From Methylomonas paludis (lineage in GTDB: Bacteria; Pseudomonadota; Gammaproteobacteria; Methylococcales; Methylomonadaceae), in the NCBI RefSeq assembly GCF_018734325.1, contig NZ_CP073754.1, forward strand, positions 682,001 through 746,000: DNA of 64,000 bases. The letters are read 5' to 3'. Positions within the stretch are counted from its first letter, which is position 1, and each line of letters starts with the position of its first letter. Position numbers and translations under genes: made by a program. Below, piece by piece: positions 48,665 through 64,000 of this stretch. The notes below the pieces were generated by a model, which did no database searches, had not been told where the DNA came from, and saw only the letters and a list, made by a program, of their open reading frames with translations.

Positions 48665-49098
48665 CTAAGTCCTGCTAGCCTCCTTTTTTTATTGATGCCG
48701 CTGGTTTGGTTTAAGAATTGTTTTGCGCTTAAGCCAAACAGCTGATTCCCCGCAGTTGTCATTACGGCTGATGCTTTGTGCCATGCCCATGCGATCTAAT
48801 GCCCACGATATTCTTGCCGGCATACTGGGTAACACTCCCAAACAAGTCGATCTCGACATTCTAGCCAGTCCGGCAATATTCATACTCAGCTGATATTTTA
48901 AATGCCGGGTTTATTAAACCTTTTAGTTTGTGCTGGTATATTCGTGAGTATTTGTTGTCATTAATGTGTAATAACGCCAATTTTCAAGGTATTATAAAAA
49001 TCATGATAGAATCAGTTGGTCTGTTAATAAGTAATTGTGGCTTAATAGATGGATTAATTAAACGGTATTTAATTTGAAATTAAACAGGAGTGTTGATT
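48665..49098. other. Intergenic region before the tail-spike-like gene
   Basis: A 434-bp AT-rich stretch. A short plus-strand frame near 48784-48894 (MPMRSNAHDILAGILGNTPKQVDLDILASPA) could be a gene remnant, but I cannot place it. No hairpin terminator is evident apart from a T-run at 48682-48690. The last 150 bp probably hold the promoter of the next gene. Confidence 0.4.
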
Positions 49099-50952
49099 AT
49101 GGCCTTAGTAATTGCAGATCGAGTAAGGGAAAGCAGTACAACAACAGGAACAGGCTCAATTAGTCTAGGTGGTGCTGTCACTGGCTATCAGACCTTTTTG
49201 TCAGCTATCGGCAGTGGCAATACCACTTATTACCTCATTTCAAACACCACCAACTCCGAGTGGGAATACGGCATAGGTACGGTAAGCTCAGGCACCTTAT
49301 CCCGCAGTACCGTCATCAGTTCCAGCAATCTTGGCGCTGTGGTCAATTTCACTGCCGGTGCTAAAGACGTATTGTGTTCAATTCCAGTTGAGAAAGCAGT
49401 CTATCTGGATGCCAATGGCAATGTTGTGCCAAACTCAGCCGCAGTTAGTGTTAAAGATTTTGGTGCAGTTGGAAATGGAGTAACCGATGATACGGTGGCT
49501 ATTCAGGCGGCATTGACATATATTGCCTCTGTCAGCGCAGTTGGGCCTTTGCCGCCAGATTTTTCCAATAAGCCTACCTTATATTTCCCGCATGGGGTGT
49601 ATCTTGTATCCACACCATTTGCAGCAATAACATTTAATGGCCTTCATATAAAAGGTGAAGGTGTTAATACTTCGGTAATCTATTACACAGGCACCTCAAA
49701 TTCGCCTTTATTTGATATTGGGTCGTTTTCAACAGCACCAACTGATATATTTAATGGGCCGATAGGTACTCATTTTGAAAATATTTCTTTGCTTGGCCTT
49801 TCCTCGCAAACAGCCGGCGCCCGCAAATCACAGGGCATCAGATGTTCCGGTGGTGGCAGTCTGACAATCGAGAATGTGCTTGTTGAGTATTTCGCTTATG
49901 GTGTAAATTGCCCTTATGGTGGAGATTTTAATTCATACATCAATCTTTCGGTTTCATATTGTGACGTAGGCGTATACCAAGGGCCAGGGGGACAACAATG
50001 GTATTCGGCCAATCTTAATGTTTTTGGTAGCGAAGAAGGGATTGTTATTGATAGAGCCGTTCATGGACACTTTGCTATGCCTATTCTCAATAGCAATCAT
50101 CTGCGCGGGGTTTTATTTGAATGCTTAACTGAAGCGACAACACGTCAATTAACAACATTACCCGGAGGTGGCGGTGGAATCGGTTTCTTTGGCGACTATG
50201 TATTTGATACGCCCTGGCTGGAGTCAAATGCCGGCGGCTTAGGGGCTAATTTTGTAACAACGCACTATTTTGAAAACAGAAATGGCGGAAGTGATGCTTA
50301 TAGAAATATTGTAATCAATAATCCATTTGTGGTGGCCGGGGCGTCTGGCAGTGCAATAACAACATCAATTTTTGGCTCAACTTCAGGTTTGACTGCTCAA
50401 AATGTAACTATTAACAATCTGCGATTTAGCGGGACAATTAGTTATGTGTTTTATCAGCCATTTGGCAGTCTACTTAATGGCTTTAGTGTTCAAAATGGAT
50501 ACTCCACCCCGGCTATTTCAGATAATACCAGTTATACTTATAATCAATACACGGCAGCCAGCGACATTAAGCATACTTCATCGCCATTTATAAGAGAAAC
50601 GGCGGCTATTGACGGTGTCAATAGAATCCAAGAAGTTATTGATATGACGGATCTTTTTATAAAATGGAATTTTTGGCTGGCGTCATCATCTTATATCACA
50701 AGACTTTCTTTCGATGTGCAAAACAGAAAAATTTGTTTTGGCGATATATCATCCGGTAATGATCCAATTATAAATCACGGTAGTTATAACGCAATGCCAA
50801 CAACAGGGTCGTGGGCAAAAGGCAGTTTTATATATAATATCAATCCCGTGGTGGCGTCAAATAGAATATTATTGGGTTGGTCAAGATTAACAACTGGGTC
50901 AGCAAATGTTGCCGGAACAGACTGGGTGCCATGTTATGTATCAACCGTATAA
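49099..50952 (+). CDS. Phage tail-spike-like protein with pectate lyase fold
   Basis: A 617-residue protein. The first 105 or so residues (ADRVRESSTTTGTGSISLGGAVTGYQTFLSAIGSGNTTYYLI...WEYGIGTV) match the N-terminal domain found in phage structural proteins. After that VSVKDFGAVGNGVTDDTVAIQAAL is the entry motif of the pectate-lyase-3 beta-helix of tail spikes, followed by G- and N-rich beta-helix turns. Such proteins bind or cleave surface polysaccharide. The ATG at 49099 fits the AGGAG site at 49086-49090. No other phage gene is near; it may be a moron or a fragment of a lost prophage. The low GC matches the neighbouring acyltransferase. Confidence 0.78.
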   Translation: MALVIADRVRESSTTTGTGSISLGGAVTGYQTFLSAIGSGNTTYYLISNTTNSEWEYGIGTVSSGTLSRSTVISSSNLGAVVNFTAGAKDVLCSIPVEKAVYLDANGNVVPNSAAVSVKDFGAVGNGVTDDTVAIQAALTYIASVSAVGPLPPDFSNKPTLYFPHGVYLVSTPFAAITFNGLHIKGEGVNTSVIYYTGTSNSPLFDIGSFSTAPTDIFNGPIGTHFENISLLGLSSQTAGARKSQGIRCSGGGSLTIENVLVEYFAYGVNCPYGGDFNSYINLSVSYCDVGVYQGPGGQQWYSANLNVFGSEEGIVIDRAVHGHFAMPILNSNHLRGVLFECLTEATTRQLTTLPGGGGGIGFFGDYVFDTPWLESNAGGLGANFVTTHYFENRNGGSDAYRNIVINNPFVVAGASGSAITTSIFGSTSGLTAQNVTINNLRFSGTISYVFYQPFGSLLNGFSVQNGYSTPAISDNTSYTYNQYTAASDIKHTSSPFIRETAAIDGVNRIQEVIDMTDLFIKWNFWLASSSYITRLSFDVQNRKICFGDISSGNDPIINHGSYNAMPTTGSWAKGSFIYNINPVVASNRILLGWSRLTTGSANVAGTDWVPCYVSTV

Positions 50953-51023
50953 ACGGGCAATTGATATGTGCACCAGCTTAAGCCAGTGCTTGTTTAGCTA
51001 ATTAAACAAGGTAATATTTTGGT

Positions 51024-51151
51024 AACTACTCAGTATCCAATTATCTTTTTACAAAACAAAAAGTAGTGTGATGTGCAAAACCTAGTGCAGTGCATGATTC
51101 GAAGCAAAGTAATTGGTTAAAATGCATTATAAAAATTTGTGCTGAGTAGTT
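51024..51151. repeat. MITE-like element with 10-bp terminal inverted repeats
   Basis: AACTACTCAG (51024-51033) and CTGAGTAGTT (51142-51151) are perfect inverted repeats around a 108-bp AT-rich core without coding capacity. The left half is clearly related to the element at 37634-37726. It looks like a non-autonomous mobile element. Confidence 0.6.
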
Positions 51152-51180
51152 GCTTTTTTTAAAAAACACCAGGAGGGTTA

Positions 51181-52296
51181 GTGAATAAGGGTTTTTCTTC
51201 TATCTTAAATGCTTCACGCTGGATTGCTGCATTGCTTGTTTTGGTTGGACATGTACGTCATTTGGTTTTCGCAGATTTAAAAGATGTAGCGCAGCCTAAT
51301 TTAATCGATAAAGCTTTTTATTTTTTTACTGGTTTAGCTTCAGAAGCCGTCACGATTTTTTTTGTGGTGAGCGGATTGCTGGTTGGGGGCTTAACATTAG
51401 AGAAATTTAGAGTAGGCGCGTCGCTAGGCTTGAAGGATTATTTTATTCATAGATTTTCAAGAATATATATAGTGTATATTCCCACCCTTTTGATTGGTGT
51501 AGTCATATATCATATGGTAACTTATTTTCAATTGAGTGGAGAAGTAAGCGGTCATACTGATATATTGACCCTTTTAGGAAATTTGGCAATGCTACAAAAC
51601 ATTATCGTAGATGTTTTTGGTAATAATCATCCTTTATGGAGTTTGGCCTATGAGTGGTGGTTCTATTGTATATGGGCATTTGCCATTGGTATTTTGTTTT
51701 ATAGTGGATTGACCCGCTATATTTCTTTATTTTTGTTGGCTTTATTGCTGGTTTTTTTGCCCAATTCAATTTATCTATCGCTGCCGGTGTGGTTACTTGG
51801 TGTTGCGACTTTTTATTACGCAGGCTCCAATTTGCCTAAGCCCCATCCCGTTTTTGGCGTTGGGGTTTTTTTAGTTGTACTTGTGGTTTCTCGGCTTAGT
51901 CATAATGTTTATAATGTAGTTGCACAGGAGCCTGCGTATATTCAATTCGCCAGAGCTTCCGGATTGGGGGTGGCCTATTTATTAGCCTTGGCTAGTTGTT
52001 ATAGGTTGGAAACCCCGCTGTGGTTGGATCGCTTAAACGAGAAATTAGCTTCTTTTTCATATTCATTATATTTGATCCATTATCCATTAATGTTTCTAGT
52101 GGTTGCCTTAGTAGAAAAATATCTGGACATAAAATCATTCCAACAACCATCATTAATGGCTTATTTGTATTTTGCAGTTGTTTCAATTATTCTTTATTTA
52201 TTTTCGTATTTGTTTTCACTCATAACAGAAAAACACACCTACAAATTAATAAAACTATTGAGATTAATCATCCTAAAGCCATCAAATAAGAATTAA
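51181..52296 (+). CDS. Acyltransferase 3 family membrane protein
   Basis: A 371-residue protein with about ten hydrophobic segments. The family signature is at the start (LNASRWIAALLVLVGHVRHLVF, with the catalytic histidine in GH) and HPLWSLAYEWWFYCIWAF lies in the middle. Family members acetylate sugars of O-antigen, exopolysaccharide or Nod factors. The start is a GTG at 51181 with a strong AGGAGGG site. GC is low and no polysaccharide operon is near, so it may have been acquired with the tail-spike-like gene. Confidence 0.85.
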   Translation: MNKGFSSILNASRWIAALLVLVGHVRHLVFADLKDVAQPNLIDKAFYFFTGLASEAVTIFFVVSGLLVGGLTLEKFRVGASLGLKDYFIHRFSRIYIVYIPTLLIGVVIYHMVTYFQLSGEVSGHTDILTLLGNLAMLQNIIVDVFGNNHPLWSLAYEWWFYCIWAFAIGILFYSGLTRYISLFLLALLLVFLPNSIYLSLPVWLLGVATFYYAGSNLPKPHPVFGVGVFLVVLVVSRLSHNVYNVVAQEPAYIQFARASGLGVAYLLALASCYRLETPLWLDRLNEKLASFSYSLYLIHYPLMFLVVALVEKYLDIKSFQQPSLMAYLYFAVVSIILYLFSYLFSLITEKHTYKLIKLLRLIILKPSNKN

Positions 52297-52598: not shown

Positions 52599-52913
52599 CT
52601 AACTGCCGGTAAACAGCAAATTAACACCCCTGCTGAACAACAGCACATCCTCAGGAAAATATTGGCGTCCCAGCATCACACAAGCCGCCCGACTCGGCAA
52701 ACGATAACAACGCACATCATCCTCCTTAACCGCAATCAAACTGCCAATATTATCCAGCAAGCCCAACAGTCTACGCCGCTTCATGACTACCGTAAAAACC
52801 GAATATTGCACAGGTAAGCCCTGTTTTTTTAACAGCCTATGCACCTTTCCCAAGCGCCGGGGATTAGCAATATCATAAGCAATCAAATACAGGCCATACT
52901 CACTGTCAGCCAT
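52599..52913 (-). CDS. cas2: Cas2-like protein B
   Basis: A 104-residue protein with the Cas2 ferredoxin-like pattern: LYLIAYDIANPRRLGKVHRLLKKQGLPVQYSVFTVVM, where D14 is the conserved metal ligand. In typical adaptation a Cas2 dimer bridges two Cas1 dimers and sets spacer length. Its start overlaps the stop of cas1B by one base (TAATG), so translation is coupled. It is the last gene of the operon and differs strongly from Cas2A, so it is not a recent duplicate. Confidence 0.9.
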   Translation of the reverse strand: MADSEYGLYLIAYDIANPRRLGKVHRLLKKQGLPVQYSVFTVVMKRRRLLGLLDNIGSLIAVKEDDVRCYRLPSRAACVMLGRQYFPEDVLLFSRGVNLLFTGS

Positions 52914-53653
52914 TAGCTAATCGCCAGTAAAAATTGCTGTAATTTGCTTAATGTGCTTCTAAACAGTGTATAAAGCCGTTCGGAACGCAGCTCAAACATT
53001 TCAGCCAATTCCGGCATAGTCAGTACGCCATCGCCACCGCGCATTAATAACAGTACATAAAAATCCCACGCCAGCAGCCGGCTAAAATCAGCCGCCAAAT
53101 TTAAGCTTTCACCCAGTAATGACTCATGATGGGTAAATCCCGCATCGGCCAACCAAATTAATAACTCACTATGCAAAAAGCTTTCCAGTAAATTCGCAGC
53201 CTGCTTATCATCTGCTGATAAATTTAACAGCAGCAAGCCCCGTAACTCCATTACTGTAACCTCCCGCCAATCCGCCATGCCTATCCGTCTTGCAAAGCTG
53301 CGCACCGCCAGCTTTTCCATAGACAAATACCAGTTGCCATAAAGTTCGATACCATCTGCCCGTGTCAGTAAATCCAGTAAACGCTGTGCCAAAAATTGTC
53401 GTTCACCTCCAGGCCCTAGCCAGCGTGCCCGCACCTCACCATTAGCTTCCAAAAACAGCAAATTAATGCCGGCATCCGCACATGCCAGTAAAGCCGACAT
53501 AGACCATTCCACCATCCCTTTGCACACCACTCGCGAAATTCGCGGCAGTGGAAACAACTGATCTGCCTTACCCGCCACCACTATCCTTAACGCCGGATCA
53601 TCCAGCACCACCCGGCATCCACCGGAGCAACCCTCAAGATACAAGGGCCGCAT
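52913..53653 (-). CDS. Divergent Cas1-like protein B
   Basis: A 246-residue protein with Cas1 architecture: an N-terminal beta domain (RPLYLEGCSGGCRVVLDDPALRIVVAGKADQLFPLPRISRVVCKG...ADAGINLLFLEANGEVRARWLGP, residues 2-82) and a helical C-terminal domain. The GxEG glutamate motif of Cas1 is absent. A region AGFTHHESLLGESLNLAADF (172-190) resembles the H/D part of the active site, with H175/H176 and D189, but the acidic residue after it is lost. Start at the ATG at 53653, with GAGG 6 bp upstream, inside the end of cas1A. It may be a structural, inactive partner of Cas1A. Confidence 0.72.
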   Translation of the reverse strand: MRPLYLEGCSGGCRVVLDDPALRIVVAGKADQLFPLPRISRVVCKGMVEWSMSALLACADAGINLLFLEANGEVRARWLGPGGERQFLAQRLLDLLTRADGIELYGNWYLSMEKLAVRSFARRIGMADWREVTVMELRGLLLLNLSADDKQAANLLESFLHSELLIWLADAGFTHHESLLGESLNLAADFSRLLAWDFYVLLLMRGGDGVLTMPELAEMFELRSERLYTLFRSTLSKLQQFLLAIS

Positions 53654-54608
53654 CAGCCGCCTCATAAACCAGAACATAACGTTTAGCCAGTGCATAAGCA
53701 TAGCGCCGTAACAATCGCCGCGCAGGGGCTGCCTGCGATTCATAATAGGCATAAAAAATCTGCCTTCCGGCTTTATTTAACAAACACCGGCCATTATCAT
53801 CACTAAAATGTTCTACCCTTAACTGTCGTTCCCGGAATAAGTGCCAGACCCAGCCATCCACGACAGGCCTCAACGGCTCCATCAAATCACAAGCCAAAGA
53901 CTCCCGGCCAAAACTCAGATCATGAAAAAATCCTAGCATGGAGTCCAAACCTACAATATGGCACGCTCTGACTGCATCGTAATGCAGCAAGGTATAGCCC
54001 AGTGACAAACACACATTAACCGGATCAGGCGGCGGTCGCTTTTTTCGGCCATTAAAATTTAACGAACCGGCGAATAAATGTTGATAACCACCAAAAAAAG
54101 CCGCAGCCGCAGCTCCCTCATATCCGCGTAAACTAGCTAGTGACACCACAAAACCATCTTCCCGCAACTGACCTATAATGTGGCTTAAAGTATCCAGTGC
54201 AGACTTCAGCGGCAAGCGCAAATCCGCACGTCTCGCCAATGCTTCTCGCAATAAACGCTGCTGGCCGCGTATTTTAACCAATACCAGCCAACGCGCCAGC
54301 GGCACTCGCAATTCATCAGCCATACTCAACTTATATTGACCTAAACGCCTTATGGTATCCCCATGCGACCGGCTAGACAGTATGGCAGTTGCTTCAGTAT
54401 TACGTCCAGAAAGCACCAATAAACCAATATTACGTTCCGACAAAGCGCCCAATATTCGACTTTCCATCTGCACATTACCCCGCATCACCACTCTATCCAG
54501 TAAATGCAAAGGCACGGTACCTTTTTTGTCACCATCCTCATACAAAGCCAATGCCTGGCCATCCAGCTTCAAAGCCAAGTTTTTTCTATCCAGATATAAA
54601 CAGCCCAT
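53634..54608 (-). CDS. cas1: CRISPR integrase Cas1 (A)
   Basis: A 324-residue Cas1, the metal-dependent integrase that inserts new spacers. The N-terminal beta domain covers roughly residues 1-80. The helical domain carries the active site: E164 in RGYEGAAAAAF, H229 in GFFHDLSFGRESLACDLMEP, and D241 and E244 in the same block. All key residues are present. It starts 3 bp after cas2A and overlaps cas1B by 20 bp. The subtype cannot be read with certainty, but the nearby CARF effectors point to type III. Confidence 0.95.
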   Translation of the reverse strand: MGCLYLDRKNLALKLDGQALALYEDGDKKGTVPLHLLDRVVMRGNVQMESRILGALSERNIGLLVLSGRNTEATAILSSRSHGDTIRRLGQYKLSMADELRVPLARWLVLVKIRGQQRLLREALARRADLRLPLKSALDTLSHIIGQLREDGFVVSLASLRGYEGAAAAAFFGGYQHLFAGSLNFNGRKKRPPPDPVNVCLSLGYTLLHYDAVRACHIVGLDSMLGFFHDLSFGRESLACDLMEPLRPVVDGWVWHLFRERQLRVEHFSDDNGRCLLNKAGRQIFYAYYESQAAPARRLLRRYAYALAKRYVLVYEAADAALVS

Positions 54609-54611
54609 AAA

Positions 54612-54896
54612 CTATCCCACATAAAAAAACGAACCATCCTGAGGTAACACCGCCTTTCCCAAAGTACGGACATACTTGGCACCTTGCAATTCCAGCAAAA
54701 TAAAACGATCTTCTTCAGGGTTAATAACTTCGGCAATAGCATCCAGTAAATCAGCTTTTTCCGCTGCACTTAAAAAGCATTCAAATACAGACTTCTGACC
54801 GCCTGACGCATAGCTTCGCAATACATAAAGCGCTTTACGCAAACGCCGATTGCAGGAAATATCGTAAGCTGCTAAATATAATTGCCGATTAGTCAT
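54612..54896 (-). CDS. cas2: Cas2-like protein A
   Basis: A 94-residue Cas2: QLYLAAYDISCNRRLRKALYVLRSYASGGQKSVFECFLS, with D12 as the conserved metal ligand. The ATG at 54896 (MTNRQLYLAAYD) is preferred over one four codons upstream. It is the first gene of the operon cas2A-cas1A-cas1B-cas2B and lies 96 bp from the distal end of the array, on the same strand as the inferred array transcript. Confidence 0.92.
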   Translation of the reverse strand: MTNRQLYLAAYDISCNRRLRKALYVLRSYASGGQKSVFECFLSAAEKADLLDAIAEVINPEEDRFILLELQGAKYVRTLGKAVLPQDGSFFYVG

Positions 54897-54992
54897 GGGA
54901 TACAACATACTCGCAATGTCAACGCAAGTCAGTAGTTCGCAAGCTTGTCAACCTTAGCGGTACTGTGCAGGAATAGTTTGGCAAGAGCGGTT

Positions 54993-57900
54993 GATTTGAT
55001 CGCTTCTTAATAAAGTCATTTGTTTAAATATTAAGGTTTTGAGAAAACTTACCGTAAAAGCAGTCTTAATCCCTTCTTAATAAGGTCATTTGTTTAAATC
55101 TACAGAGGTAGTTGATATTCACTCTAAAAATGAGTCTTAATCCCTTCTTAATAAGGTCATTTGTTTAAATAAAACTTCAACTTATATTAGGGGATTAAAA
55201 TGAAGTCTTAATCCCTTCTTAATAAGGTCATTTGTTTAAATAACTGCGGTTTTAGTTGACTGTATGCGTCCATCTGTCTTAATCCCTTCTTAATAAGGTC
55301 ATTTGTTTAAATCTGCTCAAGCTGTTGTTGATGCTGAGAATTTATCCGTCTTAATCCCTTCTTAATAAGGTCATTTGTTTAAATTTAAACATACACCGAG
55401 CACATGCTATTTTGTGTCTTAATCCCTTCTTAATAAGGTCATTTGTTTAAATGCTTGGAAGACGCGAAACTGGAAGAAGCTGCTTTGTCTTAATCCCTTC
55501 TTAATAAGGTCATTTGTTTAAATGGCGGCTGAAGCAATAGAATACGAAGCAAAATTCGTCTTAATCCCTTCTTAATAAGGTCATTTGTTTAAATCGATTT
55601 TGTTGCTGATTTTGATATTAATATCAGTCTTAATCCCTTCTTAATAAGGTCATTTGTTTAAATTTGGACGCTGAAGCGCTTGAAATGATGGATATAAAGT
55701 CTTAATCCCTTCTTAATAAGGTCATTTGTTTAAATCTCAGACCGGACAAATTTGTGCGCTGAAATTAGTCTTAATCCCTTCTTAATAAGGTCATTTGTTT
55801 AAATGGCGATTACGTTCGTCACGCTGCCAACACGCGGTCTTAATCCCTTCTTAATAAGGTCATTTGTTTAAATAACAATAAACGACGAATCACCCGCTAA
55901 TTACGGTCTTAATCCCTTCTTAATAAGGTCATTTGTTTAAATAAATAAGCACTGACACTCGCTATTCTCAGTATGAGGTCTTAATCCCTTCTTAATAAGG
56001 TCATTTGTTTAAATTTATTTAGCATAAGGGGAAAAACATGAAAACTCGTCTTAATCCCTTCTTAATAAGGTCATTTGTTTAAATAGAAAAAAACCTGCCT
56101 GACGATATTGAGTTCGTCTTAATCCCTTCTTAATAAGGTCATTTGTTTAAATAAAAAAGAGAGAGAGAGTCATGGAAAACATATATGTGTCTTAATCCCT
56201 TCTTAATAAGGTCATTTGTTTAAATATACAGCCGCTGTATGCATTCTCTGTTAGAGAGGTCTTAATCCCTTCTTAATAAGGTCATTTGTTTAAATAAATA
56301 CGACCTAATGTACCAATTGAAGATAAGGTCTTAATCCCTTCTTAATAAGGTCATTTGTTTAAATGTTTATGAGAAGTATTGAAGAAGAAATCCTGGACGT
56401 CTTAATCCCTTCTTAATAAGGTCATTTGTTTAAATAACAGTTAGCGGCAGACAATGTAAACCGTATTTAGGTCTTAATCCCTTCTTAATAAGGTCATTTG
56501 TTTAAATCGCAAAGCGAGAGCTTCAGCCGGACATCCTGGATTGGGTCTTAATCCCTTCTTAATAAGGTCATTTGTTTAAATCCAAACTATTCCATCTGGA
56601 ATAACTATCTGCAGTAGTCTTAATCCCTTCTTAATAAGGTCATTTGTTTAAATTTGATTCAGCATAAGCAAACCCTCTGATACCAGTCTTAATCCCTTCT
56701 TAATAAGGTCATTTGTTTAAATTACTCAATCACCTACTACACAGCAACTTCAACAATGTCTTAATCCCTTCTTAATAAGGTCATTTGTTTAAATAAAAGG
56801 TGAAAAACAATGGAAAATATATATGTGTCTTAATCCCTTCTTAATAAGGTCATTTGTTTAAATTCATAATTTAAAACTAAACAGGAGAAGATCATGGTCT
56901 TAATCCCTTCTTAATAAGGTCATTTGTTTAAATTAAAGTAGAGATAAATAAGGGGTCGTCGCTTAAGTCTTAATCCCTTCTTAATAAGGTCATTTGTTTA
57001 AATACCACACCAACCTTGAAAGGAAATTAACATGGCAGTCTTAATCCCTTCTTAATAAGGTCATTTGTTTAAATTATCTTCCGTTCACCGTGCCTGCAAA
57101 GTAGCAGGGTCTTAATCCCTTCTTAATAAGGTCATTTGTTTAAATTTTTTGAGCTAGTATAATTGAACTCAACGAATCGGTCTTAATCCCTTCTTAATAA
57201 GGTCATTTGTTTAAATCGCACAATTTAGTGACCCCAATTTTAATAGTAATTGTCTTAATCCCTTCTTAATAAGGTCATTTGTTTAAATGAAATTTATATT
57301 TACAATGCAGTTGGACACATGGTCTTAATCCCTTCTTAATAAGGTCATTTGTTTAAATAAAAAAATGACCATTCGTCAATTAGTTGACGAATGTCTTAAT
57401 CCCTTCTTAATAAGGTCATTTGTTTAAATTATTGGCTGGAGCGGAAACTCTTTTTCCCTTCTCGGTCTTAATCCCTTCTTAATAAGGTCATTTGTTTAAA
57501 TACCCATAAACGAAGAATTCATTGGCTATTTAGGTCTTAATCCCTTCTTAATAAGGTCATTTGTTTAAATAGCTTTCCATCCCCGAAGATGATGTGAAGA
57601 TACGTCTTAATCCCTTCTTAATAAGGTCATTTGTTTAAATAGATGATCTTGGCTGCCATCACGAGGGAAGTGGAGTCTTAATCCCTTCTTAATAAGGTCA
57701 TTTGTTTAAATAACTGATGTTAGCTACTTTAGAAGAGCTAGGCAAGTCTTAATCCCTTCTTAATAAGGTCATTTGTTTAAATGATCTTGTAGATGGAACA
57801 ATGGATGGTGCGTCTTAATCCCTTCTTAATAAGGTCATTTGTTTAAATGTGAGCGTGGAAAGCTCATTGCCATCTTATTGCGTCTTAATCCCTTCTTAAT

Positions 57901-58845
57901 AAGGTCATTTGTTTAAATACACATTGACAGCCATGCTAATGTCTCAATGGGTGTCTTAATCCCTTCTTAATAAGGTCATTTGTTTAAATTAAAAAATCAG
58001 ATTTGGCCCATGTTATGCATGAGTCGTCTTAATCCCTTCTTAATAAGGTCATTTGTTTAAATAATACCCTCAGGTTAATTTTGAAATAGTGGCTTGTCTT
58101 AATCCCTTCTTAATAAGGTCATTTGTTTAAATAACAAGCGATGAACTGACTAAAGGGGAAATGGATGTCTTAATCCCTTCTTAATAAGGTCATTTGTTTA
58201 AATTCAAACTTGACCGCGATTAAAAAACTACCTGAAGTCTTAATCCCTTCTTAATAAGGTCATTTGTTTAAATTATATTTGGTAGTGCGCATTGCGGTCA
58301 ATGTTGGCCAGTCTTAATCCCTTCTTAATAAGGTCATTTGTTTAAATAATGGCAACACTCACTATTAAAAAATCAGATTTGGTCTTAATCCCTTCTTAAT
58401 AAGGTCATTTGTTTAAATTGAAATGATCCTCAGTGCTATTACAAGGGAAGTGGAGTCTTAATCCCTTCTTAATAAGGTCATTTGTTTAAATGCAAGTTCC
58501 ACAACCTTGATAGCGTAGTAGCGTCTTAATCCCTTCTTAATAAGGTCATTTGTTTAAATAGCAAAAGTATGAAAGTGGATACGTTTTGTATCCGTCTTAA
58601 TCCCTTCTTAATAAGGTCATTTGTTTAAATAAACAGCGTAAATTTAATAGTCGTGATGATATGATGTCTTAATCCCTTCTTAATAAGGTCATTTGTTTAA
58701 ATAACACATCATGTTACAAGATACTATAAAGTTTACCGGTCTTAATCCCTTCTTAATAAGGTCATTTGTTTAAATCCCGGCTCATTGTCCAATGGCTGAC
58801 GATGCATGGGTCTTAATCCCTTCTTAATAAGGTCATTTGTTTAAA
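54993..58845 (-). CRISPR. CRISPR array, distal part: 55 repeats, 54 spacers
   Basis: Repeats of 37 bp (plus strand GTCTTAATCCCTT ... CATTTGTTTAAAT) occur every 66-74 bp; spacers are 29-37 bp. The first repeat on the left (54993-55029) has five mismatches, which marks the old, trailer end. The array is therefore inferred to be transcribed leftward. The crRNA-sense repeat then ends GGGATTAAGAC and gives an 8-nt tag ATTAAGAC, close to the common ATTGAAAC-type tag. The last repeat (from 58810) is cut after 36 bases by an IS1380 element and finishes beyond it. Confidence 0.98.
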
Positions 58846-60542
58846 CCTGAATCCGTGTTCCTTTGGGTTTACGGGGTAGCCACTGCGTTTTTTACGCTTT
58901 TTTTAAAAAATAACGTTCCCCCATCACAGCTTAACTGCCGCCCATCAACCCCCTGACGGTAAAAATCCCACGTTTCTCCGGCTTTGCCGCTCTCCACGAG
59001 TGAAAAACCAGACATCCAGACAAGCAATCCTCTTCTCAATCCTGAGAATCAGCTCAAACCTTGCGTTTCCGTTTCTGTTTCCCAGGATTATCCCGATGCA
59101 AAGCCAGGCTGTACCACCAATCGCTCCTGCAAAAAAGCGAATACTTTAGCGACTGGCGAATCGTGCCCCAAATCAAGCCACCATTGCCGGGCCTTATGGA
59201 TGACCTGAGCGGCTCGATACATGACTTCTTGCAGCACGGTTCGTAACCGCCGACGTTTTGCAGGATGGCGTATCGGTGCCAAGTGACCCGTCAAGCCCAG
59301 TTGACCAATCAGCCGCAAGCAGTTATAGGCCAGCATGCCCATTCTCAACAGGCAGTCGTTGGTCTCAAACTTACCTGAGGGTAACCGCTCCAAATCCAGG
59401 TCGGTTTTGAATTCCGAATGGAATTGCTCATGTGTACCGTGATCGCGATAGCGTTCAATGACCATTTCCTCCGCTTCCTCCAGACTTGTCCACCAACCTT
59501 CCAGTTCTACCTCCGGCAACAACAGCATCTGTCCATGTTTATTCGTGGTGCGCTCAATGACCCGTATGACCAGTCTGAAATGACGAATCTGTTTTTTCCA
59601 GGCGCGTTCTACGATCAACGTCATTAACGCTTCCCGTTTACCGGGTCGTTTTTCAACAAAGGCTCCGGCTGCTTGTGCTTTTTCGACCCAAGCTGTTTTG
59701 TCCTGTTTTCTGGGATTCCATTTGACCAAGTAGTCAAAGCACCGATCCATAGCCGCCCAGCGCACTTTCTCATCGGCGATGGCAAACAACAGCTTGGCGC
59801 TATCAAACCCTGAATCTTTGCGAAGCAGTACCGGTAAAGTCGGTGCAACCAAACGCTCAACGCGAGGAAATAGCCGCTCTAAAAAATAATCAATCTCCAG
59901 CGATGAATGCCAGCGACCGGGGCGTAACTCCAAGCCGACACACCAGCCCTCATTGCCTATATACGCCGCAACCGGCGTATAACCATCCACACCTTGATAG
60001 GTTCGGCTGACCTCTTCCTTCTTGGTGCCACTCTGATCCATGACGAAGGTATCCAAATCCAGGCAGACGTAACCTTTATGGGGTGTGATCGGGGCTTGTA
60101 TTCGCTCAATGAGTCGAATCGAACATTCGTCCAACGGTTCCAGTAGCTTACCGCTGATACGATCAAGCCGTTGCCGCAGCCAGACACTGCCAGGAACCTT
60201 GCGTACATCCAATGCTTTCTTGAAAAAACGATCCTCACGAAACGGTTCAACTGCTTCGAAATCGCTTTTGCCTATACATAACAGACCGACCATCGTTTTC
60301 AATAAATCAGAGGTCTTAATCCCTTGGGATACCGGAATTTGTCCATCCACCACCGCTTCGACATTGATGGCTTCCAGGCATTGGCCGATTAACGACAGCC
60401 CGGCATAGGAAGTCAGTTCCTTCTTGGATTCTTTTAGCTTAAAACGTGCCATAATCAAATTGGGTGAACACAGAAAGTCTATATTATACCTTATTTATCA
60501 TTGGCTTATGCGTTATTATGCGAGCCTGAACACGGATTCAGG
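58846..60542 (-). mobile_element. IS1380-type element, copy 3, inside a CRISPR repeat
   Basis: 1697 bp, with 15-bp inverted repeats CCTGAATCCGTGTTC at both ends. The target duplication TTAAA (58841-58845 and 60543-60547) comes from the TTTAAAT end of a CRISPR repeat. It has the length of copy 1 (883-2579), and the transposase translations are identical, so the insertion is recent. It may reduce leftward transcription into the 54 distal spacers. Confidence 0.96.
59088..60452 (-). CDS. IS1380-type transposase (copy 3)
   Basis: A 454-residue DDE transposase identical in translation to the one at 1125-2489. It is transcribed leftward, in the same direction as the inferred array transcript, so its promoter could even drive the distal array part. 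Start at the ATG at 60452. The acidic motif candidates LDLDTFVMDQSG, LLRKDSGFDSA and HEQFHSEFKTD are intact. Confidence 0.93.
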   Translation of the reverse strand: MARFKLKESKKELTSYAGLSLIGQCLEAINVEAVVDGQIPVSQGIKTSDLLKTMVGLLCIGKSDFEAVEPFREDRFFKKALDVRKVPGSVWLRQRLDRISGKLLEPLDECSIRLIERIQAPITPHKGYVCLDLDTFVMDQSGTKKEEVSRTYQGVDGYTPVAAYIGNEGWCVGLELRPGRWHSSLEIDYFLERLFPRVERLVAPTLPVLLRKDSGFDSAKLLFAIADEKVRWAAMDRCFDYLVKWNPRKQDKTAWVEKAQAAGAFVEKRPGKREALMTLIVERAWKKQIRHFRLVIRVIERTTNKHGQMLLLPEVELEGWWTSLEEAEEMVIERYRDHGTHEQFHSEFKTDLDLERLPSGKFETNDCLLRMGMLAYNCLRLIGQLGLTGHLAPIRHPAKRRRLRTVLQEVMYRAAQVIHKARQWWLDLGHDSPVAKVFAFLQERLVVQPGFASG

Positions 60543-60962
60543 TTAAATATTACAGAAACTCGCGGATAAGCAACTAGCTAGGGGTCTTAATCCCTTCTTA
60601 ATAAGGTCATTTGTTTAAATTAGCACCTACGGAAAAGAAGTTCTGTGCTACGTCTTAATCCCTTCTTAATAAGGTCATTTGTTTAAATATATTCATTGTC
60701 AACCATCTCTATAATGGATCCGGTCTTAATCCCTTCTTAATAAGGTCATTTGTTTAAATAATAATTTTACTTAAGCCGATCAATCAACTGTCTTAATCCC
60801 TTCTTAATAAGGTCATTTGTTTAAATTTAAGCGGCGAAACCATCAAAGCATGGTTGTCTTAATCCCTTCTTAATAAGGTCATTTGTTTAAATGTTATGTT
60901 GCAGTGGGTATTGCGGTCAATGTTGGTCTTAATCCCTTCTTAATAAGGTCATTTGTTTAAAT
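60543..60962 (-). CRISPR. CRISPR array, leader-proximal part: 6 repeats and 6 spacers
   Basis: After the IS, the duplicated TTAAA and one T restore the end of the interrupted repeat (60543-60548). Six spacers then alternate with six intact repeats starting at 60584, 60652, 60723, 60790, 60856 and 60926. The right end repeat is perfect, unlike the left end, which supports the leader lying on this side. These six spacers would be the newest. The last one (60893-60925) shares its target motif with an older spacer (58274-58310). Confidence 0.97.
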
Positions 60963-61028: not shown

Positions 61029-62162
61029 TTAAAAGTTATCTTTTTTACTTAGCCAATGTTCTAGGTGTTGGTGTAAATTGCGTAATTCGCTGTGACAGCA
61101 TAGCTCAATTTTAAGTTCTTTGGCACGGGCTAGACTGGATTTTTCCAACCGGTTAAAACTAACCAGCATGGCCTTGCTTTGCAGGCCGCCCATTAAGTCC
61201 CGCAAGCTGTCCAGTTTATATAAAATGTCAGTATCATTATTCTCTTTAAATCGTTTGGTTTTACACTCAATAATATGCAGGCTATTAGCATAAATTAAGC
61301 CGATATCAATTTCATTTTTAACTGGATTAGCTGAGGCTGATTGCCTCTCAATGGTAATGTTATTTGCAATATCTTGTATACCTTTGGATTTTTTTAGTTT
61401 TAAGCATAAGCCATAAGCATAACTTTCCAGCCAGCCGCCATTAGCCGTAAAGCGTGCTGTTTCATTGCTAAAAGTTAATCGGTGACCATTTATTGTGCAT
61501 AAACCTGCTGCTGCAAAAATATCAAATATGTCCCACAAATGTGGTCTTGCTTGTGGCCCATCTTCGATTTCAACGCATAGTTGCTGGTTTTTGGCCTTTA
61601 GTGCCAGGTAATTAAGGGTACCCAGTTCATTTGCATAAATGCCCATATTATTCACCAAAGTTTCGGTTAATTTGTGGACTGGTGCAATGACGCCAGTGTG
61701 ATCGGGCATATTAATCAAATCTGCGCCGTAAGCGGAAAGGTAGTCTTTAAGTTTGAGGTGTTGGGCCAATGCTTGAGGTTTATTTTTTGGGTATAGCCAG
61801 ATTAACTGATCTTGGACATAAAATACTGGATGCTTAAATTCTCTAAACACATCGTAGGCCGCAATTGCCATCGGTTTGGTCCCCCCGGTTGCGTTTAAGG
61901 CAATTTCACCGGGTTTATAGGCATCCAGTATATCCAATATCAGATTCTGCATGGCTTCTATGTTGAGGGGGTCGGTAACCCGATAGCGTTCCACTTGTAT
62001 GCCTTTGGGTTTCAGAATGTTTTGCAGAGCATTGGCCTGGGCCTGCATTTTATCGCTGACCAGCATAATCACTTTAGCCGGGCGCAGTTCCTTATCCAGC
62101 AAGGGCGTTAGATTAGGTATCGGTTGTTCAGAAATCAGGATTAACTGGGTAGTAATAGGCAT
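61029..62162 (-). CDS. can2: CARF-PD-(D/E)XK nuclease, Can2/Card1-like (DUF1887)
   Basis: A 377-residue CRISPR ancillary effector. The N-terminal CARF domain has the ligand loop NATGGTKPMAI (90-100), the middle is a winged-helix-like linker, and the C-terminal nuclease has E246 in GGWLESYAY, D286 in NEIDIGLIY, and E299 and K301 in IIECKTKR. Family members are switched on by cyclic oligoadenylate made by Cas10 and then cut nucleic acids. It starts 5 bp after the next gene's stop (62168), in one operon. Its presence implies a type III Cas10 nearby, outside the window. Confidence 0.88.
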   Translation of the reverse strand: MPITTQLILISEQPIPNLTPLLDKELRPAKVIMLVSDKMQAQANALQNILKPKGIQVERYRVTDPLNIEAMQNLILDILDAYKPGEIALNATGGTKPMAIAAYDVFREFKHPVFYVQDQLIWLYPKNKPQALAQHLKLKDYLSAYGADLINMPDHTGVIAPVHKLTETLVNNMGIYANELGTLNYLALKAKNQQLCVEIEDGPQARPHLWDIFDIFAAAGLCTINGHRLTFSNETARFTANGGWLESYAYGLCLKLKKSKGIQDIANNITIERQSASANPVKNEIDIGLIYANSLHIIECKTKRFKENNDTDILYKLDSLRDLMGGLQSKAMLVSFNRLEKSSLARAKELKIELCCHSELRNLHQHLEHWLSKKDNF

Positions 62163-62167
62163 CTCTG

Positions 62168-63457
62168 TTAACCGGTTACTAAGTTTAGGCCATCATTATT
62201 TGGTAATTGTGGCGGCAATTGGGGGATACCGGCCTGCTTGGCTTCGGCCAGTAACACGGGTAAAAAGCACTGTTCTATCCAGGTATTGACAGATTCCCAA
62301 GCCTGACGGTTGATGGGAGCAAAACCGTGCGCCAATATGGAACTATTTCGAGTTTGGAGGTGGTGAAGCAGATTTTCCTTTTGGGTATTAAAAAAGGCAG
62401 TCGCCGGCCCATCAGTTTTTATCGCCACCAGTTGCCAGGCATTGTGAAGTGCGGCCTGCCATTGCCCCTCCCTATTTTGGGTTAAACTCAAACCGGCTGG
62501 TATCTGCTCTGCCGGCACGTTTGCGGTTTCGATACCGGTCTGGCTAAGTAACAGCCATTGCGCAGTCCACTCCAGCAAACGGTAAATCCGGGCGATGGCA
62601 TCGTCATAACGGCCTTGCGCGGCACGGCGCTGGGCATTAAGGTATAAGTCCAGCAATCGGGCTGCGGTTTGTTTTGTGGCGTTTAGATCGTTAAGCCGCG
62701 TTGCGCAGCCAATATAGCGCCTTTGCTCATTATTTAAAGTACCGGCCTGTTTTTGCAATATATCCAAGGCCATTGGATGATTAAAATTATCCCATTCGGC
62801 AAAAGCTCGGCTCAGTTCACGAAAACGGGTATATTGGCTACGTAACTTTGGGCTGGTTGGCGCAGTAATTTGCCGCAAGCCTTCATAGGCTTCGCTGTAG
62901 GCGTAACGCGACCAGGCCTGCCGAAACGGTGCTATCTGTCGCTCAAACCGGATTTGGGAGCTGTTGGCCTGCGCACTGTATTGGGAACCGTCGTAAACTT
63001 TAATTAAATCGGCACGGCTGCCGGTGACCAGTTGCAGCTTGACTTCCGGCCATTCCAGTGCCGCCATTACCAGCCCGGCGCTCATGGATTTAGTGCCGCC
63101 TGTGTAGTCGGCGATGATATGGGCCCCTGGAAAACGCTGGGCCAAGGTTTGCAATTCGACGGTACAAGTTTGATAGATAGCGTCAAGATCGTCCGCTATG
63201 CTGATGCAAACTTGGTATTGATCTGTGTTTAATCCGGTTTGGGTGGGGATATTCGGTAAAGTGGGTTTGGCATCGGTAAATTGCGCCTTAATACAGTTAC
63301 CCACGCCGATAATTTGCACTTTCGAACCCGGCTGACCACTGGCCAGGTCTTTATCGGTGCAGATAAACACCACATGATCAGGCCGTACTTCGTTAATGGC
63401 GCTGACGATGGGCTGATGGCTGCCGCCAACAGTGCAAATGAGTATGGTAGGGGTCAT
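62168..63457 (-). CDS. CARF-HEPN protein, TIGR02710-like
   Basis: A 429-residue protein starting MTPTILICTVGGSHQPIVSAI, the strand-loop start of a CARF domain. DYTGGTKSMSAGLVMAAL (117-134) is the second ligand motif. The C-terminal helical part holds R370-N371 ... H377 (RNSSILAH), an Rx6H motif typical of HEPN ribonucleases. The pattern fits the Cas02710 family, a cyclic-oligoadenylate-activated RNase relative of Csm6. The ATG at 63457 is preferred over one 31 codons upstream that would overlap the previous gene. It is cotranscribed with the Can2-like gene. Confidence 0.85.
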   Translation of the reverse strand: MTPTILICTVGGSHQPIVSAINEVRPDHVVFICTDKDLASGQPGSKVQIIGVGNCIKAQFTDAKPTLPNIPTQTGLNTDQYQVCISIADDLDAIYQTCTVELQTLAQRFPGAHIIADYTGGTKSMSAGLVMAALEWPEVKLQLVTGSRADLIKVYDGSQYSAQANSSQIRFERQIAPFRQAWSRYAYSEAYEGLRQITAPTSPKLRSQYTRFRELSRAFAEWDNFNHPMALDILQKQAGTLNNEQRRYIGCATRLNDLNATKQTAARLLDLYLNAQRRAAQGRYDDAIARIYRLLEWTAQWLLLSQTGIETANVPAEQIPAGLSLTQNREGQWQAALHNAWQLVAIKTDGPATAFFNTQKENLLHHLQTRNSSILAHGFAPINRQAWESVNTWIEQCFLPVLLAEAKQAGIPQLPPQLPNNDGLNLVTG

Positions 63458-63491
63458 GGTATATGGTGTTTGTCCCAACTTCTTTTCAAAG

Positions 63492-64000
63492 TTACAAGTT
63501 TTTGAGTAATTCCTTGGCCTTGGCATTTTTTGCCGCCCCAATGTAGTCAAGAAGTAATTTAGCCACTACCAATAACTCGGCTTTAGCTTCATCTGGCCAA
63601 TCGCTGGCTTTTGTCACCAGTGCGCGTAAAGCCGTATAAAGCGGCCCACCGATTTGTTCGCGCACTTTGCTGTTTTGCTTTTGGCTTAACAGTTGTCTTA
63701 ATACTTCAATTTGCCTTTGTTCGTCGCTCATTATGGCAAGTCGCCGTTGCTCGGCCTGTGCTTCAATGCGTTTCTTTTCCGCATCTGCCTTTTCTTCTGC
63801 TATACGTTCCAATCGTTCTGATTCTTCCCGTTGGCGCTTATCTGCCGCCGTTACGCGTTTTTCAGCCAGATCCGATATGTGGGCGGCCAATTTTTCCGCC
63901 CACAGCCGCGCGTCAGCAGTATGCTGCTCGCACAATTCAGCTAATTCCGTCCAATCTGGAGCAGAGGCATCACCGGGTGAGATCTCTACCAGTACCCAGC
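63492..64000 (-). CDS. Coiled-coil protein, cut by the window edge
   Basis: The open frame runs to the window end; 169 residues are visible and the start lies beyond. Near the edge it reads WVLVEISPGDASAPDWTELAEL. A long charged coiled coil follows (EKRVTAADKRQREESERLERIAEEKADAEKKRIEAQAEQRR). It ends in a small helical domain (GPLYTALRALVTKASDWPDEAKAELLVVAKLLLDYIGAAKNAKAKELLKNL). I do not recognise the family. It lies 34 bp before the CARF-HEPN gene on the same strand and is probably part of the CRISPR operon. A TTG at 63935 could serve as an internal start but the frame clearly extends further. Confidence 0.6.
   Translation of the reverse strand, partial: WVLVEISPGDASAPDWTELAELCEQHTADARLWAEKLAAHISDLAEKRVTAADKRQREESERLERIAEEKADAEKKRIEAQAEQRRLAIMSDEQRQIEVLRQLLSQKQNSKVREQIGGPLYTALRALVTKASDWPDEAKAELLVVAKLLLDYIGAAKNAKAKELLKNL

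Follow-up and report, generated by a model that had tools for sequence, protein, structure and literature searches.

The window analysed here is a stretch of 64,000 nucleotides from the genome of the methane-oxidising bacterium Methylomonas paludis, and its minus strand carries four ORFs in the order cas2A-cas1A-cas1B-cas2B, a CRISPR array and the beginning of a type III-A gene set (Table 1). The initial annotation had described four minus-strand genes that overlap or nearly touch, and this is confirmed: cas2A and cas1A are separated by 3 nt, whereas cas1A overlaps cas1B by 20 nt and cas1B overlaps cas2B by 1 nt. The same order is repeated in related genomes, and hence exceeds what chance would produce. 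The length of cas2A is counted from the conserved start, a longer ORF opening at 54908. A longer ORF of cas1B, open from 53752, is unsupported, and the start is set at 53653 because the homologues begin at that Met.

Table 1. Adaptation genes, CRISPR array and adjoining genes of the window
Feature	Position	Strand	Basis
cas2A, first operon gene, 94 aa	54612..54896	-	Pfam Cas2, 50.9 bits
cas1A, catalytically complete Cas1, 324 aa	53634..54608	-	Pfam Cas1, 238 bits
cas1B, shortened Cas1 paralogue without catalytic residues, 246 aa	52913..53653	-	Pfam Cas1, 29.2 bits
cas2B, last operon gene, 104 aa	52599..52913	-	Pfam Cas2, 53.1 bits
CRISPR array, 61 repeats of 37 nt	54993..60962	-	59 of 61 repeats perfect
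IS1380-family transposase in array	59088..60458	-	NCBIfam NF033539, 338.7 bits
Card1-like CARF nuclease	61029..62162	-	Pfam Card1_endonuc, 121 bits; CARF_Card1, 67 bits
Csm6/Csx1-type CARF-HEPN protein	62168..63550	-	TIGR02710, 198 bits; Csm6 HEPN, 102.3 bits
csm5, 3' end	63492..64000	-	PADLOC scan of L057 and ORFs

The array contains 59 perfect repeats, one with 1 mismatch and a last one, next to cas2A, with 5. Its leader is taken to be at the 60962 end, and the operon likely adjoins the old end. Between the repeats lie 59 spacers of 29-37 nt and a single interval of 1737 nt that contains the insertion sequence, and the IS1380 copy most likely interrupts one spacer. An active site in Cas1A, the metal-binding Asp of the Cas2 proteins and a neighbouring array of 61 repeats are all present, as expected of an adaptation module.

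Beyond the window edge, the extended locus (L057) carries csm4, csm3, csm2, cas10/csm1, a CARF gene and cas6 in the same orientation as the window genes, and the type III-A set is complete, with Cas10/Csm1, Csm2-Csm5 and Cas6 all detected there by PADLOC. A PIN-domain gene (PF01850) stands between csm3 and csm4, outside the window (L057:8198-8599; G000 C1:748197-748598). No reverse transcriptase was found among 8 proteins of the window (Pfam, NCBIfam and PADLOC) or 8 proteins of L057 (PADLOC, one also with Pfam). The genome is a single contig of 3.67 Mb with a second CRISPR locus of type I-F (PADLOC) and a further locus labelled I-E-like from its gene order and repeat. The stretch beside the operon at 49090-52296 encodes a pectate-lyase-like protein (PF12708) that may be a phage tailspike, together with an acyltransferase-3 protein (PF01757).

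Conservation and shared inheritance of the module

The full cas2A-cas1A-cas1B-cas2B order on one strand is found in 48 of 58 de-duplicated loci, with nine others partial (several of them cut off at contig or locus ends) and one, L022, rearranged as cas1A-cas2A-cas1B-cas2B. In none of the 58 does cas2B precede cas1B. A locus was removed as a duplicate only when residues 6-100 of its cas1B were identical to those of another, and near-copies therefore persist in these counts. One of the full loci, L054, has its cas1B in two pieces. The homologues of Cas1B and Cas2B thus occur in conserved synteny, contrary to the outcome that the initial annotation had named as evidence against its proposal. With start codons chosen by homology, cas1A and cas1B overlap in 30/55 junctions and cas1B and cas2B in 42/55, and cas2A is spaced 0-30 nt from cas1A in 45/52. 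The gap between cas1A and cas1B exceeds 30 nt in 15 of 55 loci, with a maximum of 1054. In L033 (1651-2439) and L037 (3933-4712), a histidine-kinase-like gene (HisKA and HATPase_c) is located between the two. In L011 and L055, both among the 58 loci, and in L034, which is listed with L011, cas1B directly follows cas2A and a recognisable cas1A is absent.

Within the family, 31 of 201 genomes have a Cas1B match, and the loci of 20 of these were retrieved. The 31 named loci come from Methylococcales (among them Methylobacter, Methylotuvimicrobium and Crenothrix), Nitrosomonas and unplaced proteobacteria, and the hosts thus include methanotrophs; the module is present in Methylotuvimicrobium buryatense 5G (L047). 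A protein search returned at least 278 relatives at E ≤0.001, and the Cas1B sequence of L085 recurs unchanged in a Mariprofundaceae protein. A scan of the class gave matches in 21/369 genomes, 18 being second Cas1 genes and three ordinary Cas1; the profile matches dropped as ordinary Cas1 are L077-L079 and L089. In the phylum samples, the Cas1B-type locus occurs in 7/299 genomes (of eight that matched, one was an ordinary Cas1 and was left out) and in the same 7/398, the window's genome included; in the latter sample 49 matched, and only the seven with ≥88 bits were counted, the others being partial matches of ≤51 bits. Among seven pattern matches on viral contigs, none encodes a Cas1B relative.

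The reverse search gives a similar association. A Cas1A profile run on 339 genomes of the class separates 19 loci at 364-477 bits from the next matches at ≤244, and cas1B is present in 18 of the 19, the exception (L122) having cas2A, cas1A and cas2B only. Two incomplete cas1 genes with lower matches to the profile may belong to the same group: a contig-end piece beside a cas2A in L128, and a cas1 split by a stop in L149, a III-A locus with cas2A and cas2B and without cas1B. In a class sample of 321, Csm3 exceeds its cut-off in nine genomes, six of which (G000, G010, G268, G336, G399 and G495) carry the module. No natural fusion of Cas2A, Cas1A, Cas1B or Cas2B was found among 349 ORFs with a match.

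All four genes are under purifying selection, with median dN/dS of 0.094 for cas2A, 0.092 for cas1A, 0.151 for cas1B and 0.142 for cas2B (118 pairs, with usable dS in 84, 60, 53 and 73, respectively). Cas1B is fast-evolving, its mean pairwise identity being 0.36 as against 0.54 for Cas1A. In a tree of 65 Cas1 proteins, one branch separates the 24 Cas1A from all other sequences (94/89) and another does so for the 24 Cas1B (100/99); seven subgroups are common to both, and several Cas1B branches are long. The distances of Cas1A and Cas1B correlate at 0.957, and as all six gene pairs lie at 0.90-0.96, the correlations indicate joint inheritance rather than contacts between particular partners.

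Active sites and folds of the Cas1 and Cas2 proteins

The active site of Cas1A is complete in the window protein (E164, H229, D241 and E244), and across 47 loci the first three residues are kept in all, while the E244 column has E in 45 and D in two. Cas1B retains D alone in the window. Across the 47 loci, the Cas1B residues at the Cas1A columns are H for H229 in 2/47, E or D for E244 in 4/47 and D for D241 in 36/47, and the E164 region is unalignable. Hence the earlier statement that Cas1A has the full active site and Cas1B does not stands.

All four operon proteins exceed their Pfam cut-offs. The Pfam Cas1 match of Cas1B passes the cut-off of 22.3 bits and covers the N-terminal domain only; that of Cas2B to Pfam Cas2 is also above cut-off, so that the profile search proposed in the initial annotation recovers both proteins. 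Cas1B also matches the PADLOC-DB profile PDLC01185 (30.2 bits, E 8e-8), for which no curated cut-off is given, over positions 12-71 of 246. Single-sequence phmmer of Cas1B against PDB sequences gave no match up to E 10, and profile A2 reached a Cas1 there (7mi4, E 6e-5). Profile-profile comparison of Cas1B gave probabilities of 98.1 and 99.2, the latter with hhalign against Cas1A. The AlphaFold2 model of Cas1B (pLDDT 90.0) has both domains of the Cas1 fold and gives structural matches to Cas1, which is the opposite of the missing Cas1 fold that would have counted against the earlier proposal. A chance similarity of Cas1B to Cas1 was rejected on the profile-profile comparison together with the predicted structure.

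The Cas2A family is 94 aa long in 43/47 loci and has a GGQKS motif. The metal Asp of the YD motif is present in 47/47 Cas2A and 47/47 Cas2B proteins, in line with the earlier observation of this motif in both; the accompanying remark that the two have otherwise little in common was too strong, as they share 34% identity over 89 aa (E 8e-11).

Related loci, effectors and spacers

Four loci (L139, L140, L141 and L144) have two different cas2 genes ahead of one cas1. In three of them (L140, L141 and L144) a gene with the RVT_1 domain (PF00078) directly follows cas1, as it also does in L143, where cas2 was unrecognised. The cas1 genes of the two-cas2 loci score 213-234 bits with the Cas1A profile and rank among its next-best matches, and other loci at similar scores have one ordinary cas2. 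In a Cas2 tree that is unrooted and built from few columns, Cas2A is joined by the first Cas2 of these loci (92/85) and Cas2B by the second (98/92). As both Cas2 paralogues are found in loci with one cas1, the Cas2 pair is probably older than Cas1B, gene exchange between loci being the alternative. The likeness to the window locus extends to the repeats of L139-L141, which have a similar 3' end; the two-cas2 loci differ in having no Cas1B and, in three of them, the reverse transcriptase gene, and their Cas1 is not placed nearest to Cas1A in the Cas1 tree. Such relatives are possible intermediates in how an integrase becomes asymmetric.

The repeats end in AAGGGATTAAGAC in 21 of the 24 arrays beside the module; those of L098 and L101 end in GGGATTACGAC, and L039 has a fragment only. 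The ends are dissimilar to the module's in L142, L146 and L147, which lie near single-cas2 cas1 genes. Similar repeats occur in L160, L161 and L162, with no adaptation genes in the stretch read. Csm3 stands near the module in the window's genome and in L027, L039, L040, L042, L054, L090, L108 and L163, and Cmr proteins in L091, L097 and L099. Hence, where effectors were read, the module accompanies type III effectors of both kinds, III-A and III-B. No I-E or I-F genes were found beside the module in a search that used the window genome's own genes as queries over stretches of unequal length.

The spacers of the window array have no match in 50,697 phage records. Over 718 spacers from 19 four-gene arrays, the purine fraction is 0.540 on the target-sense strand (p 7e-30); repeated spacers were counted once, and L033, L034, L039, L041 and L108, with three or four recognised copies, were left out. 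By thirds from the leader, it is 0.546, 0.532 and 0.540 (12 of the 19 arrays). An RBS+ATG motif is found in 47/718 spacers on the target-sense strand and in nine on the other (19 arrays, the window's included), which makes an enrichment for gene starts possible. In the four-gene arrays the spacers lean towards an antisense orientation relative to transcripts, and the arrays resemble a functional type III memory. The tendency is absent from I-E and I-C-like arrays: 42 I-E spacers of the same genome have a fraction of 0.503, and two arrays that we label I-C-like give 0.494 (99 spacers) and 0.504 (19). The two-cas2 loci contribute three arrays, with a fraction of 0.519 (p 0.09, 61 spacers), and the values of five further comparison arrays, of 4-15 spacers each, lie between 0.499 and 0.599. 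A set of four arrays chosen as examples of type III with ordinary adaptation reaches 0.545 (84 spacers), but it is weak: Csm3 is over cut-off only in the genome of L164, the single values scatter (0.481, 0.534, 0.540 and 0.613), and the repeats were oriented by assumed 3' ends. As this set lacks Cas1B and has the same bias, strand bias was rejected as a sign of Cas1B function; it fits type III generally.

A candidate heteromeric integrase

Copies of one Cas1 chain take both the catalytic and the non-catalytic roles in Cas1-Cas2 complexes. According to the available part of one source, the canonical complex consists of four Cas1 and two Cas2 (PMC9048733); the window shares with it the Cas1A active site, Cas2 and a CRISPR array, but has two Cas1 and two Cas2 genes, and one of its Cas1 is without catalytic residues. 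The portions available on the Cas6-RT-Cas1-Cas2 complex (PDB 7kft/7kfu) tell a catalytic Cas1a apart from a non-catalytic Cas1b within one assembly, an idea of two seats that the window locus may share; there, however, both seats are filled by copies of one chain and the RT is fused, whereas no RT was seen here (PMC8102632). In the accessible text on an Antarctic contig, MtG-4_NODE_208, the gene string cas2-cas1-cas1-RT-csm3gr7(x3)-cas10 is given, which names one Cas2 and is likened to the window by gene string, not by sequence (PMC11742911).

The initial annotation knew of no described system with this layout and allowed that databases may hold one. The latter part proved right: PADLOC describes PDLC01185 as 'Cas1, diverged variant, second in the loci', and hence the gene is known to curators. 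Cas1B resembles it in profile match and in second-cas1 position, and eight of 299 genomes match, seven of them with this locus type (the window's included, and one of the seven cut by a contig end); the profile is a name without a function, and its match spans under a third of the window protein. A functional description of a two-Cas1, two-Cas2 layout was not found in the literature searched, which excluded subscription papers and supplements, and may exist. Term matching in the accessible text of PMC5513706, PMC5541045 and PMC11229360 did not return the layout, and the first of these weighs little because even 'cas2' was unmatched there. Two apparent matches to 'diverged cas1' in the available text of PMC12669027 read 'diverged Cas10'. 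The gene set is judged to be a new and conserved form of the Cas1-Cas2 adaptation module.

Because many related bacteria retain the gene set, it probably encodes a functional machine, an asymmetric variant of one that is normally uniform. The reading preferred here, with a probability of about 0.6, is that all four proteins assemble into a single heteromeric integrase, which inserts spacers for type III-A CRISPR and in which Cas1B takes the non-catalytic seat, a place that a dead, shortened and tightly coupled Cas1 paralogue would fit. Cas1A would be the catalytic subunit and would have Cas1B as its partner within every Cas1 dimer, instead of another copy of itself as in ordinary systems. Cas2A and Cas2B would make a heterodimeric core, and the asymmetry would serve prespacer capture or orientation. 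We infer the co-assembly, the seat of Cas1B and the role of the asymmetry from the conserved order, the gene overlaps, the low dN/dS, the co-inheritance, the Cas1B fold, the Cas2 grouping and the Cas1a/Cas1b division reported for the Cas6-RT-Cas1-Cas2 complex. Against these count the loci without cas1B (L122 and L149) or a recognisable cas1A (L011 and L055), the split cas1B of L054, the cas1A-cas1B gaps of up to 1054, the fast evolution of Cas1B and the lack of fusions. The hetero-oligomeric integrase suggested by the initial annotation is thus the best reading, but a joined Cas1A-Cas1B AlphaFold2 model has a pTM of 0.55 and does not place the two confidently, so no interface is predicted with confidence. 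The Cas1B half matches Cas1 chains B/D. The earlier example of one pair for capture or orientation and one for catalysis would be one of several possible divisions of labour.

To our knowledge, type III systems are PAM-less and how orientation is fixed in them is an open question. A more detailed version of the heteromeric integrase, offered tentatively, is that the Cas2A-Cas2B heterodimer distinguishes the two ends and Cas1B always occupies the non-catalytic seat. The orientation of type III prespacers would then be encoded in the subunits rather than depend on a PAM or on Cas4. Such a machine may have arisen stepwise, from two Cas2 and one Cas1 (often with an RT), followed by a Cas1 duplicate that lost catalysis.

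The same four subunits could be arranged otherwise, each end of the complex having its own pair: Cas2A would carry a Cas1A dimer and, opposite, Cas2B a Cas1B dimer. The inactive Cas1B side would grip one end of the prespacer, and a single end would then integrate first, which would fix the orientation. The genes are paired as cas2A-cas1A and cas1B-cas2B, and the asymmetry of the Cas2 pair is itself ancient; however, the junctions do not favour these pairs and, since full insertion of a spacer takes two strand transfers, an end without any activity would depend on help or on exchange, which makes this arrangement unlikely. It is less likely still that Cas1B and Cas2B form a regulator that binds Cas1A-Cas2A or the leader and restrains integration. 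A lost active site in a kept fold would suit such a role, but tight coupling and conserved order suit stoichiometric subunits better, and the metal Asp of Cas2B is invariant.

A comparably low probability is given to Cas1B as a replacement for an RT partner, both perhaps presenting prespacers, which may be transcript-derived, to the same Cas2A/Cas2B-Cas1 core. The RVT_1 gene of L140, L141, L143 and L144 occupies the place directly after cas1 that cas1B has here, and the spacers tend to be antisense to transcripts; yet the fold of Cas1B is that of Cas1 and not of a polymerase, and the weak comparison set without Cas1B has the same strand bias. It is very improbable that Cas1B and Cas2B are duplicates that have lost their function and are decaying. 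Cas1B is short, diverged and without its active site, and it is missing or split in three of the loci above (L122, L149 and L054), but the dN/dS of cas1B and cas2B is low (medians 0.15 and 0.14, maxima 0.42 and 0.54) and both proteins occur in many families. The dN/dS and the synteny together disfavour a pseudogene reading.

For the heteromeric integrase, separate genes for the two Cas1 roles and the two Cas2 positions would let each seat be mutated and tagged independently. It also follows that database entries titled 'CRISPR-associated endonuclease Cas1' include proteins without the active site.
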